Positions 9,507 to 18,219 of a DNA stretch of 64,000 nt are shown piece after piece; position 1 is the first letter of the stretch; every line of letters begins with the position of its first letter. The translations under genes and the position numbers were made by a program. The notes beneath the pieces were generated by a model that did not search any database, was not told where the DNA came from, and saw only the letters and a program-made list of their open reading frames with translations. The stretch is taken from positions 48,681 through 112,680 of the forward strand of contig CACXFS010000002.1 in NCBI GenBank assembly GCA_902766885.1. The letters are read 5' to 3'. Source of the DNA: an uncultured Ruminococcus sp. GTDB taxonomy: Bacteria; Bacillota; Clostridia; Oscillospirales; Acutalibacteraceae.

Positions 9507-10436
9507 TTGGACGAAAATAAGGATTTTCTTACTTCTGAATCAGAAGCAGAAAACAACATAAATTCCGACACAGATACAACAACTAATGAAAGCAGTCAGG
9601 AAAGCTTTTCCGGAGCATTCAGCGACGAAATTGCTGAAACGCAGGGTGAATCCGAAACAGAAGTTACTCCTGTTGACTACAGTGCAAATGCTCCCGTTGC
9701 TGTTAAAAAGAAGAAGGGCTTTATCCAGCTTCCTATCATTATTTCACTTGCTATTCTTGTTTTAGTAGCACTTGGATTTTTAGTATTCAAGGTGTTTTTC
9801 AATACAAGCGTTGTAGGAACATGGACTGTTAAGGATACAGCTACTGCTGACGAAGCTACAACTGCTACTTCCGATGAGGTTGCTAAGAATTACTACACCT
9901 TTGAGGATGACGGAACTGCTTCAATCCACCTTGGCACTATGAAAATGATTGGTACATATTCACTTGACACAAGCGATGAAGGTACAAGAACAATTGACAT
10001 CAGTATTCCTTCCGCACTTGAGGGCACATTTGAGTACGAGGTTACAGGTAACGAGATTACAGGACGTACGCTTACGCTTACAGACACCTACTACGGTCAG
10101 AGCATTGACCTTGAAAGTACTAAGCTTGTTATTCCCGAGATGAAACCGGACGCTGACTTCAAGCCAAATGAAAAGCTTGCCGCAAAGTGGACCTATGACG
10201 ACGGATATTACAAGATGAGCTATGAGCTCAGAAAAGACGGTACGGCTACCGTAAGCCAGTCGGATATTCTTTTTGCTGACGGCGTTTACAACTATACAGA
10301 CAACACAATCACAATTAAGTATTACACAAATCAAGAGGTTACTATGGAGCTTAATTACGAACTGAAAGATGACTCAATTATTATTGACGGTATTCAGTTT
10401 ATGAAAGATACGGGCTCTTCCTCTGATGAATCATAA
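9507..10436 (+). CDS. Single-pass membrane protein with two beta-rich outside domains
   Basis: The 309-residue product starts at TTG, fixed by a near-perfect AAAGGAGGT eight bases upstream. Residues 1-70 are acidic and Ser/Thr-rich with no signal peptide. One membrane helix lies at about 75-97 after KKKKG, and the outside part holds two similar lipocalin-like segments. Each has a VGTWTVKD- or LAAKWTYDD-type opening followed by YYxFEDDGTAS- or YELRKDGTATVS-type strands. This resembles small DUF5640-like domains. Its function is unknown. A good terminator follows the stop. Confidence 0.7.
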   Translation: MDENKDFLTSESEAENNINSDTDTTTNESSQESFSGAFSDEIAETQGESETEVTPVDYSANAPVAVKKKKGFIQLPIIISLAILVLVALGFLVFKVFFNTSVVGTWTVKDTATADEATTATSDEVAKNYYTFEDDGTASIHLGTMKMIGTYSLDTSDEGTRTIDISIPSALEGTFEYEVTGNEITGRTLTLTDTYYGQSIDLESTKLVIPEMKPDADFKPNEKLAAKWTYDDGYYKMSYELRKDGTATVSQSDILFADGVYNYTDNTITIKYYTNQEVTMELNYELKDDSIIIDGIQFMKDTGSSSDES

Positions 10437-10456: not shown

Positions 10457-10488
10457 AGGCAGCAGCGGTTTTCCGCTGTTGCCTTTTG
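10457..10488 (+). terminator. Terminator of the 9507 gene
   Basis: An 11-bp stem GGCAGCAGCGG / CCGCTGTTGCC with one G-T pair and a TTTT loop is followed by TTTTG. Confidence 0.8.
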
Positions 10489-10527
10489 TGTTTTATAGAA
10501 AGAGTGACTTTATTTCACCGATGTCAT

Positions 10528-11823
10528 ATGAAACGAAAACTAATTACAGCAATCCTGCTATCACTAATTTTTCTGTTTATTGCCGCAGGCACTGTATATT
10601 CAGAATCAGATAAAAATTTATCTGTATTCAATGAATGTAAAAAATACTACACAGAAAACAATTCTAACGGTGCGTTTATTTACGGATTTGATTACAGCAC
10701 ACTATACTCATCACGTGTTCTCCCCTCTTTCAGCATCAGATATGCTGCGGTTGACGGAACAATACGTTCCGTCAGTCACAACAAAAGCTGCTCTTATGCA
10801 CTTTATAACATAATTAACTCATATTATGTTACTGAACTTGACAGCGCAGACGGCAATTGTGTTACATATTCTTTCGGAGAACTAAAGTCAATTGACAACA
10901 GCTCGTTTGCTTTTTGCGACGGTAAAGCTTACTTTATCTTTACGGACAGTAATAATACTTATGTAAGGTCATATGACAGCAACGGGAAAGCACTAAAAAA
11001 ATATACTTTTGACGCAAATATAAAACGCATTTTTACAAATGATTCAAAAGTTTATGTATTGCTTTATGACGGAGAAATCTACAGGCTTGACAACAACAGC
11101 TCAAGTTACTGCGTAAGCATTAATACAGATTATGAAATTTGTAATGCGGGAAACGGATATATTTACAGCGAAGCAGGAACGCTGTTCTCACTTGCTGACA
11201 GCAATATTGAACATATCTACGGTGCAAAGTCAAATTGTGTTGTAAAAAGCGAAAATAGGCTTATTTATTCAGATGAGCTGACAATAAAATATGAGGACAA
11301 GTACTTCAAGAGCAACAAGAAAATTAAATCATTATTCTTTTATGGAAATAATGTCGGTATTCTTGATGAAAGCTTTACACTTAACACCATTAAACTTTCA
11401 GATTTTAAAGATAATAGCAGCGGTATAAATTCAAATAATGTCACAGAAAATAAAAACAGTAAAGTGAGTATTAATTCCGACGGGTATATAACGGGAATAA
11501 ACAACGGGACAACAGTGATTGATTTCAAAAAGCTGTTTTCTGACGAAATTGCAGTTTATGATAAAAACGGAAATGTAGTAACAAGCGGTAAAATAAAAAC
11601 AGGCTATCGTGCGAGAATTTCTGACCGCATTTACGAAATTTCAGTTTTGGGTGACATAACCGGAGAGGGTAATGTAAAGTCAAATGATGTTTCAGCTTTG
11701 ATGTCATATTTTGTCGGAAAATCAGATTTAAACGGTGTTTATCTTGCGTCCGCTGATTATAACAATGACGGAAGTATTACAAACAAAGACCTTGTTGGTA
11801 TCGCACGTCAGGCTAAAAATTAA
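10528..11823 (+). CDS. Exported protein with divergent dockerin-like C-terminus
   Basis: A 431-residue protein from the ATG at 10528 (MKRKLIT), chosen because a hydrophobic signal segment follows directly; the in-frame ATG at 10486 would prefix it with a non-signal peptide. The body is Ser/Asn/Tyr-rich with repeated short beta strands such as KVYVLLYDGEIYRLD, suggesting a propeller. The last ~60 residues resemble a dockerin: DITGEGNVKSND is a degenerate first calcium loop and DYNNDGSITNKD an intact second. The recognition helices differ from those of the other dockerins here. It may bind another cohesin or be decaying. The Shine-Dalgarno is weak. Confidence 0.65.
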   Translation: MKRKLITAILLSLIFLFIAAGTVYSESDKNLSVFNECKKYYTENNSNGAFIYGFDYSTLYSSRVLPSFSIRYAAVDGTIRSVSHNKSCSYALYNIINSYYVTELDSADGNCVTYSFGELKSIDNSSFAFCDGKAYFIFTDSNNTYVRSYDSNGKALKKYTFDANIKRIFTNDSKVYVLLYDGEIYRLDNNSSSYCVSINTDYEICNAGNGYIYSEAGTLFSLADSNIEHIYGAKSNCVVKSENRLIYSDELTIKYEDKYFKSNKKIKSLFFYGNNVGILDESFTLNTIKLSDFKDNSSGINSNNVTENKNSKVSINSDGYITGINNGTTVIDFKKLFSDEIAVYDKNGNVVTSGKIKTGYRARISDRIYEISVLGDITGEGNVKSNDVSALMSYFVGKSDLNGVYLASADYNNDGSITNKDLVGIARQAKN

Positions 11824-11835
11824 AACACATAACAA

Positions 11836-11862
11836 AAGCCTCCGCTTTCACGGAGGCTTAAT
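11836..11862. terminator. Bidirectional terminator
   Basis: A perfect 9-bp stem AAGCCTCCG/CGGAGGCTT lies between the convergent 10528 gene and the pseudokinase gene. Confidence 0.8.
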
Positions 11863-11876
11863 TATTTAACCGGATA

Positions 11877-13511
11877 TTATTGATTTGACTGGGTTTCAGC
11901 ACTTTCTTTGCCTTTGCTGACAATGATAGTTACGTTTGTACCGTATTCTACGGTATCGCCCTCTTGATGGTTTTTGTAACCGATTACTCTGTCCTCGGCA
12001 ACTGTGTCGCTGTACTGATACTCGGCTGTTGCAAGAAGTCCCTGAGCCGCAATATCAGAAGCGGCTTCGTCAAGCTTTGAGCCCTCAACTTTCGGCAATT
12101 CTCTCATCTGAGGACCTTTGCTGACAGTAATACTGATAAGTATTCCGTCCTCCTGCGTAACCTTGGAGCCTGCTGCAGGGTTCTGAGAAATTACAGTACC
12201 TTCTTTATAATCTTCACTGTATTCATCGGTATATGAACGGTAAACAGTTATTTTGGTATCACCCTCTGCCTGCTTCATAACGTCCTCATAGTTCATTCCA
12301 ACATAGTTCGGAATCGTTGCACCCGTCCACTCAGTGCTCTGGGTAGACTCGACTGTTTCAGAGGTGTTTCCGCCGAAAACTCCGGCAAGCGGATTTTGCA
12401 TAAGCCAGAATACTCCCGCAATTCCCAGCACAAGGACTGTAATCGCAGCGGAAATAATAACGATTGAAGTATGCGACATTCCGTTGCGTCCCTTTTGGGA
12501 TTTATCAGCCTTTGAAAGATTCATACTTGCAGTTCTTGAAATTTCCTCCTGAATTGCCTTGGCAGTGTGAGCTACGGAAAGCTGTGAACGAAGTTCGTCA
12601 AAATCAGTAATTCTGTTTTCACGTTCAACCTGTAAGCCGTTTGCAAGTGCAGAAACAACGTGCGGAGGCAGACGCTTAACTGTAGTAGTGCTCATAAGAA
12701 GTCTGCTGTCTTTGCGGCGCTCGGGTGCGCTTTTTGGAAGGTGTCCTGTCAGAGCATAGAAAAGAGTTGAGCAGAAACCGTAGATATCGGTAATATCATC
12801 GAGCGGAAAATTATCGTCGTACTGCTCCGGTGCAGCCGCTCCGGAAAACAGCTGGGATTTAAGCGGTGTGCCACGCTTGCGCTCATTTTCAGTGGCAAAA
12901 CCACTGATTTTTATTTTGCCCGAGGAAGTTATAAATATATTTTTCGGTGCAATTGCATAGTGGCCTACTCCACGCTTATGAAGTGCCTCAAGTGCAGAAA
13001 TAACAGGCATAAAGAGCGGGCGTGCTATGTCCCATTCAAGACTGCCGCTGCTGCGCTCAACATATTCTTCAAAAGGAATTAAATCCTCATTTTCTTCAAC
13101 CACATAAACGGTATTGTTTTCTTCAAAAATATTATGAACCTTCATCAACGCAGAAAGGTCCCTAAGCTCGCACAGAATACGATAGTAATTAATAAAATCG
13201 TCCTTAAGCTTATTATATGCAAGGCGGTTTTCGTAGTTGATTTTGACTTCAGCCGAGCCTTCTTCCCTGCTGAAAAGTCCCATTGGCAGGAACTCACAAA
13301 TAATTACCACATCGCCTGTCTGCTTATCAAAGCTGATATATCGTGTACTTTCACCGTTTGTATCAATGCCCGAACCGACAATATACCTGTTTGAAAGCAC
13401 CGTGCCGTAAGGCAAAAAAGGTGCATGTTGTTTTTCGGAATTATCAAAGCCACATTCGGGACAAATTTTATTGTTGCCGATTTCCTGCATACAACCCATA
13501 CACAATGACAT
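11877..13511 (-). CDS. Zinc-ribbon pseudokinase with transmembrane helix and two PASTA domains
   Basis: Counting from the ATG at 13511, residues 4-20 form a zinc ribbon (CMGC, CPEC). A kinase fold covers about 35-265, a membrane helix about 350-372, and two PASTA domains about 398-535 (IPNYVGMNYEDV, LPKVEGSKLDEA). The kinase has lost its catalytic residues. The ATP-binding lysine of VAIK is Cys (VIICEFLP). The HRD loop is HYAIAPKN, so the catalytic Asp is Ala, and DFG is SGFA, so the metal Asp is Gly. The APEQ motif is kept. It is therefore probably a non-catalytic cell-wall sensor. An intact PrkC/PrpC pair lies 2 kb upstream. A TTG at 13541 is an alternative start; GGAG lies 12 bases before the ATG. 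Confidence 0.85.
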   Translation of the reverse strand: MSLCMGCMQEIGNNKICPECGFDNSEKQHAPFLPYGTVLSNRYIVGSGIDTNGESTRYISFDKQTGDVVIICEFLPMGLFSREEGSAEVKINYENRLAYNKLKDDFINYYRILCELRDLSALMKVHNIFEENNTVYVVEENEDLIPFEEYVERSSGSLEWDIARPLFMPVISALEALHKRGVGHYAIAPKNIFITSSGKIKISGFATENERKRGTPLKSQLFSGAAAPEQYDDNFPLDDITDIYGFCSTLFYALTGHLPKSAPERRKDSRLLMSTTTVKRLPPHVVSALANGLQVERENRITDFDELRSQLSVAHTAKAIQEEISRTASMNLSKADKSQKGRNGMSHTSIVIISAAITVLVLGIAGVFWLMQNPLAGVFGGNTSETVESTQSTEWTGATIPNYVGMNYEDVMKQAEGDTKITVYRSYTDEYSEDYKEGTVISQNPAAGSKVTQEDGILISITVSKGPQMRELPKVEGSKLDEAASDIAAQGLLATAEYQYSDTVAEDRVIGYKNHQEGDTVEYGTNVTIIVSKGKESAETQSNQ

Positions 13512-13671: not shown

Positions 13672-13747
13672 TGGTGGAGATAACGGGGCTCGAACCCGTG
13701 ACCTTTTGACTGCCAGTCAAACACTCTCCCAGCTGAGCTATACCCCC
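13672..13747 (-). tRNA. tRNA-Ala (GGC)
   Basis: On the minus strand it reads GGGGGTA...TATCTCC-ACCA with an encoded CCA. The anticodon stem TTTGA/TCAAA encloses the loop CTGGCAG, so the anticodon is GGC (alanine, GCC codons). T-arm GGGTTCGAGCCC is present. Confidence 0.95.
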
Positions 13748-14491: not shown

Positions 14492-15382
14492 TCAACGCAG
14501 TTCCCATTCTTTTATGTCTTTTACCTCGTTATACATTGCAACATAGCTTTTATGGCGTGACGGCTCAATTTCGCCGTCAGAAACAGCCTGCAAAATCCTG
14601 CATCCCTTTTCACAGGTATGCGAACAGGAGGTAAACTGACATTCACCGAGGTATTTTTCAAATTCGGGAAAGCAGTACTGCAAATGAGTTTTGTCAATCA
14701 TTTCGTATCTCTGCAAGTCAACGGTAGAAAATCCCGGAGTGTCAGCCACAAAGCAACCGTCAATTTCAAACAGCTCAACAACCCTTGTTGTGTGTTTTCC
14801 TCGTCCGAGTTTTCGGCTTATCTGCCCTGTCTGCAGCTCAAGCTCGGGGAAAATTCGGTTAATCAGCGTTGATTTGCCTACTCCGCTGTTTCCCGTAAAA
14901 GCAGACACCTTGCCTTTAAGAAAATCTTTAAGCTTGTTCACGTTCTCAGTATCGTCGGGAGAACAGAGAAACACAGGAAATTCGGAATTGCGATAAATTT
15001 TTGCAATCCTTTCCCCCGATTTCAAATCATTTTTCGACACAACAATTGCAGGAATCATATTGTTGTTAACTGCCGCCGCAGTCATCTTGTCAATTACCGT
15101 AAAATTCGGCTCAGGGTCAACCGTTGAACATACAATTACAAGTGTGTCGATATTTGCAAGTGCAGGGCGTTTTAGCTTGTTGATTCTCGGTTTTATTTCT
15201 TCAATTGACGCAAAGCCCTCATCGGGAACGGAAATTACTACCTTATCTCCGACTACGGGGGAATTTCCGCTTTTGCGAAAACTTCCCCTTGCCTTACATT
15301 CATATTCTTTGCCGTCACAGCGAACGTAATAGAATCCGCCGATTGACTTCATCAATAATCCGTTAAGTTTAGTCATACTCAT
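14492..15382 (-). CDS. rsgA: Ribosome small-subunit GTPase RsgA
   Basis: RsgA is a circularly permuted GTPase that helps mature the 30S subunit. The 296-residue protein has an N-terminal OB fold and then the permuted order G4 (SKNDLK), G1 (GNSGVGKSTL) and G3 (DTPGF). The C-terminal zinc knuckle is in CQFTSCSHTCEKGC. The ATG at 15382 overlaps the prkC stop (TGATG); the ATG two codons later is an alternative. The coupling keeps it in the prpC-prkC-rsgA arrangement typical of Firmicutes, where PrkC phosphorylates RsgA in Bacillus. Confidence 0.95.
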   Translation of the reverse strand: MSMTKLNGLLMKSIGGFYYVRCDGKEYECKARGSFRKSGNSPVVGDKVVISVPDEGFASIEEIKPRINKLKRPALANIDTLVIVCSTVDPEPNFTVIDKMTAAAVNNNMIPAIVVSKNDLKSGERIAKIYRNSEFPVFLCSPDDTENVNKLKDFLKGKVSAFTGNSGVGKSTLINRIFPELELQTGQISRKLGRGKHTTRVVELFEIDGCFVADTPGFSTVDLQRYEMIDKTHLQYCFPEFEKYLGECQFTSCSHTCEKGCRILQAVSDGEIEPSRHKSYVAMYNEVKDIKEWELR

Positions 15383-17475
15383 CAGTAATCAATCCCGTTG
15401 TCAACAGGACCTGTAGGAGTATACGGGTCCGTCGGATACTGGGGCTCATCGGGATAAGTTTCGGGCTCTGTTTCAGGCTCATAAGGAGCAGTTGTTTCAA
15501 CGACAAAATCGTGAGTAGCAGTTGTAGTTACAGACGAAGTCGAGAAATCAATGCTGTATTCACGGTAAGCCTGACCGTCAAGCTGAATTACTACCGTAGA
15601 AGTGCCTGAACCCGTAATTTCAAGAGTGCAGGTCTTATTGTATTTAGGAACAAGAGTTTTTGAATACTGCGGGTCAACTACACCGTCGACAATTACCGTC
15701 ATTTCAACGGAAGAATCTGTATTTGTCGGGAGGTCTACGTAAATATTGACCGTATTTTTGTCGCCCTTGCCGGAGCTTACTGTCAGCGTAACAACAGTTC
15801 CCTTGTCAACCTTGCCGTACTGCAAGGGTGACATTCCGAGAACAGTATCTTTAGCCTCTTTGCTGTCGTCATCATACTGAGTTTCAACAGTCAGTCCAAG
15901 CTCCTCAAGTTCGGATTTAGCTTCGCTTAAAGTCAGTCCGGTTACAGACGGAAGCTGAACCTGTTCAGGTCTATCTCCGTTTGCTACGTAAATATATACT
16001 GTTGAGCCGATAGTAGCCTTTACGCCTGCTTTTGGGAAGGTATCAATTGTATATCCCTTTGGCGTTTTTGTATTTTCAACATAAACTACTTCCGCCATAA
16101 AGTTCTTGTCCTTAAGCGACTGCAGCGCTTCTTTTTCACTGAAATTCGTAACAAAAGGAACGGAAACTTCGGTGTCTGTACCGTTTACGGTAAGGGTTAT
16201 TGTTGAGCCGGACTTAACTTTCATTGAACCGCCAGCAGGCTCCTGATCAAGAATTGCACCCATTTCTTTTGATTCGTCGTACTTGCTCTTTATTTCAAAC
16301 TGGAAGTTATTCGGGTTATCCTCTTTTGCCTCTACGAGAGTTTTGCCGACATAGTTCGGAACATCAACGTCCTTTGCCTGAACAGAGTTACAGCCTCTGA
16401 ACACTGCAAGTGCAAAGAAAATAACACAAACTGCAACAGCCGCAATCAGAATACCCTTAATTGCGTAGTAGGACGGCTTGTGCTCCTTGACAAAATCATC
16501 CTCCTCGGGTTCATCCTGACCCGGTCTTTCATCAGATACAGGCTTTTGAATTACCTTTGTTCTGTCATTCTTTGTATCCTTAATAGAATTAACAAACTTT
16601 GTGGGCTGATTATCAACAAATGATTTTCCGTAATCAAAAACAATTGACGGATTCAGTCTGAAACGCTCAATATCACTCAACATTTCAGCGGCAGAAGTGT
16701 AACGAGCCGACGGCTGTTTCTGCATTGCTTTCATTGTAATCTGTTCAAGTCCTATGGGGATTCCGGGGTTAACCTCACGGGGACGTTTCGGTGTTGACTG
16801 CAGCTGCATAAGTGCAACAGAAACAGCGCTGTCGCCGTCAAACGGAAGCTTTCCCGTAAGCATTTCGTAGAGCATTACGCCGACAGAATAAATGTCGGTT
16901 TTGCCGTCGGTAACATCTCCCCTTGCCTGCTCGGGCGCAATGTAGTGAACAGAGCCGATAGCCTGCTCGGTCATTGTGCGTGTTGCCTTGTCGGAAAAAC
17001 GTGCAATTCCGAAGTCGGTTACTTTAATTGTTCCGTCCTGCAAGAGCATAATGTTCTGCGGCTTGATGTCACGGTGAACTATTCCGCACTCGTGAGCGTG
17101 CTGCAACGCCTTTAAAATCTGCGTTGCAAGGTGAAGGGCGTCCTTCCACTCGATTATGCCCTGTCTGTCAATATATTCCTTGAGCGTTATGCCGTCTATA
17201 TATTCCATTACAATGTACTGAATCATATCGCCGAAACTTACGTCGTAAACCTTGACGATATTAGGATGAGAAAGCATTGCAATAGCCTTTGATTCATTTT
17301 TGAATCTGCGAATAAATTCCTCGTTGTTGAGATATTCGTCTTTAAGAATTTTTATTGCAACCTCACGGTCGTCGATTGTGTCGGTACAGCGGTAAACATT
17401 TGCCATACCGCCTACGCCGATAAGCTCATGGATTTCATAACGGCCGTCAAGTCTTTTGCCAATATATTTATCCAA
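15382..17475 (-). CDS. prkC: PASTA-domain Ser/Thr protein kinase PrkC
   Basis: A membrane kinase that senses peptidoglycan fragments and phosphorylates cytosolic targets. From the TTG at 17475 (GGAG eight bases upstream) it is 697 residues. The kinase domain at about 12-270 has VAIKILK, HRDIKPQN and DFGIAR all intact. A membrane helix lies at about 340-365, with three PASTA repeats at about 370-575 (VPNYVGKTL, VPFVTNFSEKEA, LPSVTGLTLSEA). A further ~120 residues include a Thr/Pro/Glu-rich end. An upstream TTG at 17493 overlaps the Shine-Dalgarno and is less likely. The partner phosphatase prpC is directly upstream. Confidence 0.95.
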   Translation of the reverse strand: MDKYIGKRLDGRYEIHELIGVGGMANVYRCTDTIDDREVAIKILKDEYLNNEEFIRRFKNESKAIAMLSHPNIVKVYDVSFGDMIQYIVMEYIDGITLKEYIDRQGIIEWKDALHLATQILKALQHAHECGIVHRDIKPQNIMLLQDGTIKVTDFGIARFSDKATRTMTEQAIGSVHYIAPEQARGDVTDGKTDIYSVGVMLYEMLTGKLPFDGDSAVSVALMQLQSTPKRPREVNPGIPIGLEQITMKAMQKQPSARYTSAAEMLSDIERFRLNPSIVFDYGKSFVDNQPTKFVNSIKDTKNDRTKVIQKPVSDERPGQDEPEEDDFVKEHKPSYYAIKGILIAAVAVCVIFFALAVFRGCNSVQAKDVDVPNYVGKTLVEAKEDNPNNFQFEIKSKYDESKEMGAILDQEPAGGSMKVKSGSTITLTVNGTDTEVSVPFVTNFSEKEALQSLKDKNFMAEVVYVENTKTPKGYTIDTFPKAGVKATIGSTVYIYVANGDRPEQVQLPSVTGLTLSEAKSELEELGLTVETQYDDDSKEAKDTVLGMSPLQYGKVDKGTVVTLTVSSGKGDKNTVNIYVDLPTNTDSSVEMTVIVDGVVDPQYSKTLVPKYNKTCTLEITGSGTSTVVIQLDGQAYREYSIDFSTSSVTTTATHDFVVETTAPYEPETEPETYPDEPQYPTDPYTPTGPVDNGIDY

Positions 17476-17493
17476 AAGGTTCACTCCAATCAA

Positions 17494-18219
17494 TTAATAG
17501 ATAACTGTTGCGGTTATGTTATCACTTCCGCCGCCGTCCTTTGCACAGTCAACAAGCTTTGTGATAAGTCCCTCTCCACGGTTTTCGTGGCAGATTTTAA
17601 CCATATCGCCCGTTGAAACGCAGTTTGAAAGTCCGTCGGTACAAATCAGAAGAACATCGCCGTAAATAAAGTTTGCTTCTATATAATCAAGTCTTACAGA
17701 GGGCTTTATGCCAAGCGCCCTTGTAATGAAGTTTTTGTTGGGATGATTCTGTGCCTGCTCGTATGTTATCTCGCCTCTTCGCACCATTTCCTGCACAACC
17801 GAGTGATCTTCGGTAAGCTGTTTTATCTTACCGCCTCTGATTGCGTATGTACGGCTGTCGCCGACGTGGACAACGTGAACGGTTGTGTCCTTGACAAATA
17901 CAAATTCACAGGTTGTACCCATTCCTGCAAGTTCGGGGTCATTTGTTGAAAGCTCAAATATTTTCATATTGGCGTTTACAACAATTTCAGCCATAAGCTC
18001 GCCGATTTGTTCCTTTGTCATATCGTCCTTATATAAATCGGTAATTTTGGAGCTTATGTATTCAACGGCTGTTGCACTTGCAATATTTCCGCCGTTGGCA
18101 CCTCCCATTCCGTCACATACTACCGCCCAAACACAGCTGGGAGAAATAACTCCGAAGCGAAAATCATCCTGATTCTGGGTTCGGACAAGTCCGATGTCGC
18201 TTTTGCTGAATACTTCCAA
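17494..18219 (-). CDS. prpC: PP2C-type Ser/Thr protein phosphatase PrpC/Stp
   Basis: A metal-dependent phosphatase that reverses PrkC phosphorylation. Its 241 residues contain the PP2C motifs RTQNQDDF, VCDGMGG, GDSR near the middle, and SDNITATV at the end, with the metal-binding aspartates present. The start is TTG, set by AAAGGAGGT seven bases upstream within the last codons of rlmN. The stop lies 18 bases before the prkC start, so the antagonistic pair is made from one message. Confidence 0.95.
   Translation of the reverse strand: MEVFSKSDIGLVRTQNQDDFRFGVISPSCVWAVVCDGMGGANGGNIASATAVEYISSKITDLYKDDMTKEQIGELMAEIVVNANMKIFELSTNDPELAGMGTTCEFVFVKDTTVHVVHVGDSRTYAIRGGKIKQLTEDHSVVQEMVRRGEITYEQAQNHPNKNFITRALGIKPSVRLDYIEANFIYGDVLLICTDGLSNCVSTGDMVKICHENRGEGLITKLVDCAKDGGGSDNITATVIY

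Follow-up and report, generated by a model that had tools for sequence, protein, structure and literature searches.

Bacterial pseudokinases are mostly unstudied. Five families consisting entirely of pseudokinases and two pseudokinase-rich families have been distinguished in bacteria, and in the text of the review that names them the term PASTA appears once, in the reference list (PMC12599244). The pseudokinase domain of the mycobacterial MviN protein (ActPs3) is membrane-borne, takes part in peptidoglycan control and is a target of the PASTA kinase PknB, recruiting FhaA once phosphorylated; the portion of the source available describes deletions in its activation loop and elsewhere, and mentions neither PASTA modules nor a zinc ribbon. 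In Clostridioides difficile, CD2148 is a second membrane Hanks protein besides PrkC, in which Ser replaces both the catalytic Asp and Asn; according to the excerpts available (PMC6428115/PMC8262956), it has no PASTA modules and a C-terminal transmembrane helix, is phosphorylated in vitro only with PrkC, and may be a pseudokinase in the view of its authors. EssB/YukC is also a transmembrane pseudokinase scaffold of the Firmicutes, but belongs to type VII secretion, and the available text on it mentions neither PASTA modules nor a ribbon. A search of the open-licence literature returned no published description of a PASTA pseudokinase family.

The window (the whole stretch of 64,000 nucleotides of uncultured Ruminococcus DNA analysed here) encodes a protein of 544 amino acids in which a Cys4 zinc ribbon is followed by a kinase fold, a transmembrane helix and a pair of PASTA modules. 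The kinase fold, the single transmembrane helix and the PASTA ectodomain are common to the PrkC/PknB/Stk1 PASTA kinases. PrkC differs, however, in being catalytic and in belonging to another clade, and the PrkC encoded here has no zinc ribbon; the window protein scores 132.7 bits on NF033483, below the cut-off of 450. Unlike ActPs3 of MviN, with its deletion, it has an activation segment that is present and conserved. It is a real, conserved and old PASTA pseudokinase, a family-level variant with a non-catalytic state that is well supported by sequence and a mechanism that we infer. Its relatives form a widespread single clade with surviving active sisters, from which what a dead kinase keeps and drops can be read in sequence, and they raise the question of why two bacterial families keep a wall receptor that is, by sequence, unable to signal by phosphorylation.

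Organisation of the locus

The features of the locus are as follows.

11836..11859, minus strand: terminator-like hairpin 3' of the pseudokinase gene, 10-bp stem and T tail (pattern match only)
11877..13511, minus strand: zinc-ribbon PASTA pseudokinase CDS, 544 aa, ATG at 13511
11910..12107, minus strand: PASTA 2, residues ~469-534, second PF03793 stretch (boundary approximate)
12120..12317, minus strand: PASTA 1, residues 399-464, best Pfam PF03793 stretch
12408..12464, minus strand: transmembrane helix core, residues 350-368 by hydropathy (AF2 helix 347-372)
12522..12575, minus strand: juxtamembrane helix, ...IQEEISRTASM, residues 313-330
12576..13412, minus strand: pseudokinase domain, residues 34-312
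12819..12836, minus strand: AAPEQY, closing the activation segment, with the APE Glu retained
12894..12902, minus strand: DFG position, Gly204-Phe205-Ala206 (GFA)
12954..12962, minus strand: HRD position, His184-Tyr185-Ala186 (HYA)
13296..13298, minus strand: Cys72 (TGT), in place of the VAIK Lys on beta3
13422..13511, minus strand: N-terminal zinc ribbon, residues 1-30, Cys C4/C7/C17/C20
13584..13613, minus strand: promoter-like TTGAAA-18-TATAAT upstream of the pseudokinase gene, 11/12 consensus match (pattern match only)
13672..13747, minus strand: tRNA-Ala (ggc) in the gap between thiN and the pseudokinase gene (ARAGORN)
15382..17493, minus strand: PrkC, Ser/Thr kinase with PASTA modules and all catalytic motifs intact, likely pathway partner
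17494..18219, minus strand: PrpC, PP2C phosphatase

An upstream TTG start would give the pseudokinase gene a longer open reading frame of 554 aa. The protein is matched by Pfam Pkinase (E 4e-13), the APE-type Glu is Glu229 (codon 12825-12827), and both the four ribbon Cys and the PASTA modules are present in 59/59 family sequences, the Cys being invariant. The gene probably forms its own transcript, since a promoter-like site lies upstream of it, a terminator-like hairpin downstream, and a tRNA-Ala gene between it and thiN. Two genes on the plus strand lie beyond its 3' end: the convergent one (10486-11823) encodes a 445-aa protein with a type I dockerin at the C-terminus, and the other (9507-10436) a DUF5640 protein of 309 aa with a hydrophobic stretch seen by eye.

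Distribution of relatives

Orthologues were recovered in 36/36 genomes of the genus by a protein search (59 relatives), four of them (G011, G014, G026 and G034) as contig-end pieces only. A scan of named genomes, from which the best 80 of 152 relatives were used (identity of at least 53 %), added the Ruminococcus bromii strains L064 (ATCC 27255, 83 %), L069 and L097 among others; R. bromii is a member of the GTDB Acutalibacteraceae. Across whole families, a profile match was found in 137/150 genomes of family f1 (109/115 among those of good quality) and in 116/119 of family f26 (90/90 among those of good quality), these tallies being of profile matches rather than motif states and including some active zinc-ribbon kinases or PrkC proteins. 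In a sample of 391 genomes of the class, whole-profile matches, among those listed, were confined to f1 and f26. One class-level match spanning most of the profile (L268) is active, and the 16/16 class-level loci read all keep the catalytic Asp (15 as HRD, one as HKD).

Catalytic residues lost and kept

A sequence-only reading of the window had proposed that the three catalytic signatures were lost together, and the codons bear this out, with the VAIK Lys replaced by Cys (C72), HRD by HYA (residues 184-186) and DFG by GFA (residues 204-206). The kinase fold, APE-type Glu, membrane helix and two PASTA modules that it listed as retained were likewise recovered, from the codons, Pfam, hydropathy and AF2. 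Further losses in this protein, absent from that list, affect the three glycines of the glycine loop, Glu in alphaC and Ala in beta3.

These states extend to the 113 sequences referred to here as the R. bromii group, which comprise the window, 32 same-genus sequences assigned by code and the 80 of the named-genome scan, whose genus code is unchecked and among which L134 is titled Anaeromassilibacillus. At 99.5 % identity they collapse into 97 clusters, with 16/32 genus sequences having a twin among the 80. Both HYA and the catalytic-loop Asn are found in 113/113, the position of the VAIK Lys is occupied by Cys (91), Arg (14), Ala (3), Thr (1) or Ser (1), with three unread, and that of the DFG Asp by Gly (111), Cys (1) or Ala (1), with Asp in 0/113. 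Outside the genus, the catalytic Asp is present in 0/38 readable sequences of the 39 other f1 sequences, one of which has Glu at this position, and in 0/40 f26 sequences (0/78 in total). Another 40 genomes, sampled afterwards and chosen among the matches with their motifs still unread, gave the same picture (catalytic Asp, beta3 Ala and alphaC Glu each 0/40; APE Glu and ribbon each 40/40).

Residue by residue, 83 pseudokinase sequences (8 of the R. bromii group, 35/39 other f1 and 40 f26; four f1 near-duplicates or fragments omitted and L185 uncounted) were aligned with 26 active sequences, in which each of the residues considered is kept in 25 or 26 of 26. The catalytic Asp, beta3 Ala and alphaC Glu are retained in none of the pseudokinases (26, 26 and 25 of the active sequences), and the first, second and third glycines of the glycine loop in 1, 2 and 54, respectively (first 26 and second 25 among the active sequences). 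Partial retention is seen for the beta3 Lys (22), catalytic-loop Asn (33), DFG Asp (15) and DFG Phe (69), and the HRD His and APE Glu are kept in 83/83. In 52/83 none of the three residues Lys, catalytic Asp and DFG Asp remains, and the beta3 Lys and DFG Asp occur together in 6/83; beta3 Lys is found in 21/40 f26 sequences, and Lys or Arg in 72/75 other-genus sequences. The losses are graded. Loss is complete or almost so for the catalytic Asp, the Glu of alphaC, the Ala of beta3 and two of the glycines, and partial for the Lys and DFG Asp. Since many f26 members keep the beta3 Lys and 6/83 sequences keep both Lys and DFG Asp, some members across the clade may bind nucleotide. The window protein itself is, judging from these residues, very probably non-catalytic. 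The DYD family, like the pseudokinases outside the R. bromii group, has Arg on beta3 and lacks the alphaC Glu; its DYD motif occurs at the DFG position in 0/78 readable other-genus sequences, and the first Asp in 0/113 R. bromii-group sequences.

Origin of the clade and of the zinc ribbon

In a tree of 78 of the 116 sequences (every second f1 and f26 sequence), constructed with the motif columns removed, 46 pseudokinase sequences, including L185 from a third family, form a single clade (support 100/100, branch 0.76) that sits inside the active zinc-ribbon kinases. Six PrkC sequences form a separate clade (100/100), and the tree rules out an origin by PrkC duplication. The sister clade of the pseudokinases (96/80) holds six active sequences. 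Two of them (L276:3057-7088 and L279:2626-7224) were read over their full length, and a protein of the same kind (L277:2663-6376) is encoded in tandem beside a third. These three share the N- to C-terminal order of ribbon, kinase, transmembrane helix and PASTA modules with the pseudokinase, but differ in their intact motifs, in their 8, 4 and 6 PASTA stretches, respectively, and in their length of 1237-1532 aa. The zinc-ribbon kinases of the Clostridia have the CxxC...CxxC ribbon in common with the pseudokinase and enclose it in the tree, but do not share its altered HRD and DFG motifs.

The ribbon had been taken for an addition to the pseudokinase, a view that did not survive this comparison: it is carried by 25/26 active homologues as well, the sole exception (L242) being truncated where its contig stops, and the nesting of the pseudokinase clade among them marks it as inherited. 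Ribbon and PASTA modules are both carried by the active sister kinases and so probably predate the loss of catalysis. The third-family member (L185:7114-8766, genome G057) is a distant ribbon pseudokinase with HRL and HGF motifs, a kept Lys and one PASTA match. The multi-PASTA kinases are encoded in tandem with HRD zinc-ribbon kinases (L276:1056-3032, L277:705-2666 and L279:631-2622); the C-terminal part of the first resembles an extracellular solute-binding protein (Pfam, barely above the cut-off), and the other two are alike by eye.

Selection and the constrained surface

Median dN/dS values were calculated over 59 strains, dropping pairs that were saturated or outside dS 0.1-1.2, and are rough, with dS near saturation. 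They amount to 0.064 for the ribbon and pseudokinase domain (66 of 1711 pairs) and 0.041 for the kinase of PrkC (142 pairs), which suggests that the pseudokinase domain is under almost as much constraint as its counterpart in PrkC. The PASTA modules give 0.285 in the pseudokinase (64 pairs), where they are among the least conserved portions, and 0.254 in PrkC (53 pairs).

Invariant residues of the pseudokinase are concentrated in alphaE (15/20), the catalytic loop (9/12), the activation segment (19/32), alphaI (13/16) and the juxtamembrane helix (10/18 across 59 strains), with 2/23 in alphaC; T215, S325 and T327 are invariant in the 59 strains. Sequences of other genera that were compared do not retain the ISRTAS stretch. 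From alphaC to beta5, 9/49 residues are invariant in the pseudokinase against 42/48 in PrkC, which is the more conserved protein in most segments compared, among them the glycine loop, the N-lobe and the activation segment; conservation in alphaG-alphaH is about the same in both. On this pattern of conservation, scored by segment only, the constrained surface is that of the C-lobe (alphaE, activation segment and alphaG to alphaI) together with the juxtamembrane helix.

Genomic context and the link to PrkC

The neighbouring PrkC (15382-17493) is intact, as had been claimed, with VAIK, HRD and DFG all present. The upstream genes on the strand of the pseudokinase gene are thiN, rsgA, prkC and prpC, followed by rlmN-like and rsmB-like genes (the last two by eye), and prkC is found upstream on the same strand in 54/56 R. 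bromii-group loci with at least 8 kb of upstream sequence, the exceptions being L081 and L108. This arrangement was not found in 80 loci outside the group, covered for up to 6 kb on each side (less at contig ends): prpC, rsgA, thiN or rlmN matches occur in 0/80, a separate prkC in none, the prkC matches overlapping the pseudokinase gene itself, and a weak rsmB match (28-31 %) in four f26 loci. Clustering of neighbouring open reading frames in 87 loci (80 of other genera and 7 of the R. bromii group) led to the rejection of a general operon partner outside the group, the commonest cluster other than the pseudokinase itself, chorismate-mutase-like by eye, being present in only 14/87 loci, all f26.

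The genome of the window (92.6 % complete) has three Pkinase matches, namely PrkC, the zinc-ribbon pseudokinase and a second PASTA pseudokinase, and all three catalytic motifs are found only in PrkC. Just two Pkinase matches occur in 14/60 genus genomes, and in 7 of these 14 the protein search recovers PrkC and the zinc-ribbon pseudokinase. If the pseudokinase works through an active kinase in these genomes, PrkC would, by elimination, be the sole candidate seen. The second PASTA pseudokinase (L284:1430-3673, contig C14; 747 aa) has HGN for HRD and GGF for DFG, one PASTA module and a YARHG domain, with no zinc ribbon seen; its kinase part has matches of 46-53 % identity in 6/26 other genus genomes (G001, G002, G006, G013, G021 and G024), a patchy distribution. 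PADLOC matches were read as generic kinase models, and a defence system was rejected.

Proposed function and alternative explanations

The protein is best explained as a non-catalytic, wall-facing scaffold or regulator of the PrkC pathway that binds a putative partner through its C-lobe, to which we assign a probability of roughly 0.55. That it acts in the PrkC/cell-wall pathway at all is put at slightly better than even odds, and direct contact with PrkC is rather doubtful. The PASTA modules would hold the pseudokinase at peptidoglycan or lipid II sites, and its cytosolic domain would serve as a docking and allosteric surface rather than an enzyme, with the C-lobe surface used most likely by the PrkC pathway. 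PrkC might bind this surface, as a pseudo-substrate or front-to-front partner, or might phosphorylate the pseudokinase (T215, S325, T327), upon which a wall-synthesis protein would be recruited; MviN and CD2148 are precedents. The sequence-only reading had also suggested that the protein might titrate peptidoglycan signals; its PASTA modules are among its least conserved portions. A further and tentative suggestion is that the PASTA-kinase system of this major gut lineage is a fixed pair, made up of catalytic PrkC and an old PASTA receptor which, after a single loss of catalysis, came to serve as its dedicated non-enzymatic partner. The pseudokinase would then be a bacterial counterpart to HER3-type pseudokinase receptors; in some genus genomes it is one of only two Hanks-fold proteins found.

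Two of the alternatives are finer versions of the scaffold or regulator, and their odds overlap with it. Direct pairing with PrkC, which the sequence-only reading had raised, would make the protein a dominant-negative decoy or one half of a HER3-like heterodimer, with PASTA ligands shared between the two. It is suggested by the PASTA ectodomain on both proteins, by PrkC being the only three-motif Pkinase match of the genome and by its upstream gene in 54/56 group loci. It is nevertheless somewhat unlikely, considering that alphaC to beta5, the N-lobe route by which bacterial kinases dimerise back to back, is variable in the pseudokinase and conserved in PrkC, and that none of the 80 loci outside the group has an adjoining prkC. 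Less probable again is a relay resembling that of MviN, in which an FHA protein would dock once PrkC had phosphorylated either the activation segment or the juxtamembrane helix. The invariant S325 and T327 are consistent with it, as are FHA matches in 29/30 genus genomes and the fusion of FHA to an FtsW/RodA polymerase in the two genomes read, preceding a penicillin-binding transpeptidase in the genome of the window. The ISRTAS stretch is missing from the other-genus sequences compared, however, and the FHA-SEDS fusion, rejected as a general partner, occurs in 5/6 other-genus f1 genomes but in 0/6 f26 genomes examined, though f26 has the pseudokinase, and also in f13, f14, f16 and f18, where the order search gave no whole-profile pseudokinase match among the matches listed.

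The remaining explanations concern the fate of the active site. A new enzymatic activity in a repurposed pocket has precedents in SelO and SidJ and could draw on the beta3 Lys or Arg of other genera and the catalytic-loop Asn of the R. bromii group. It appears quite improbable given the beta3 Cys in 91/110 readable sequences of that group and the state of the beta3 Ala and alphaC Glu (both 0) and of two glycines (at most 2) in the 83 and 40 sequences. A decaying, pseudogene-like kinase is barely credible: in its favour, the Lys and DFG Asp have been lost by degrees within the clade, but dN/dS is ~0.06 and matches persist in 116/119 and 137/150 genomes of two families. Decay of recent date is ruled out by this constraint and by the loss of motifs across orthologues, the catalytic Asp being found in none of the 113, 78 and 40 sequences inspected. 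The sequence-only reading, which had named HRD/DFG retention by orthologues in most genomes as the mark of recent decay, had regarded structure kept without catalysis as meaningful, and these data support a stable, selected state; because relatives in two families also lost catalysis yet kept their shape, the membrane protein is probably a working signalling part rather than a decaying gene.

Wall-synthesis genes that carry related domains were recorded as well. The FHA-FtsW/RodA/SpoVE fusions are encoded at L362:1727-3436 and L360:978-2663, with the penicillin-binding transpeptidase gene following in the genome of the window. On contig C16 of the same genome, a penicillin-binding protein with two PASTA modules (L285:1262-3568) adjoins a gene that is mraY-like by eye.
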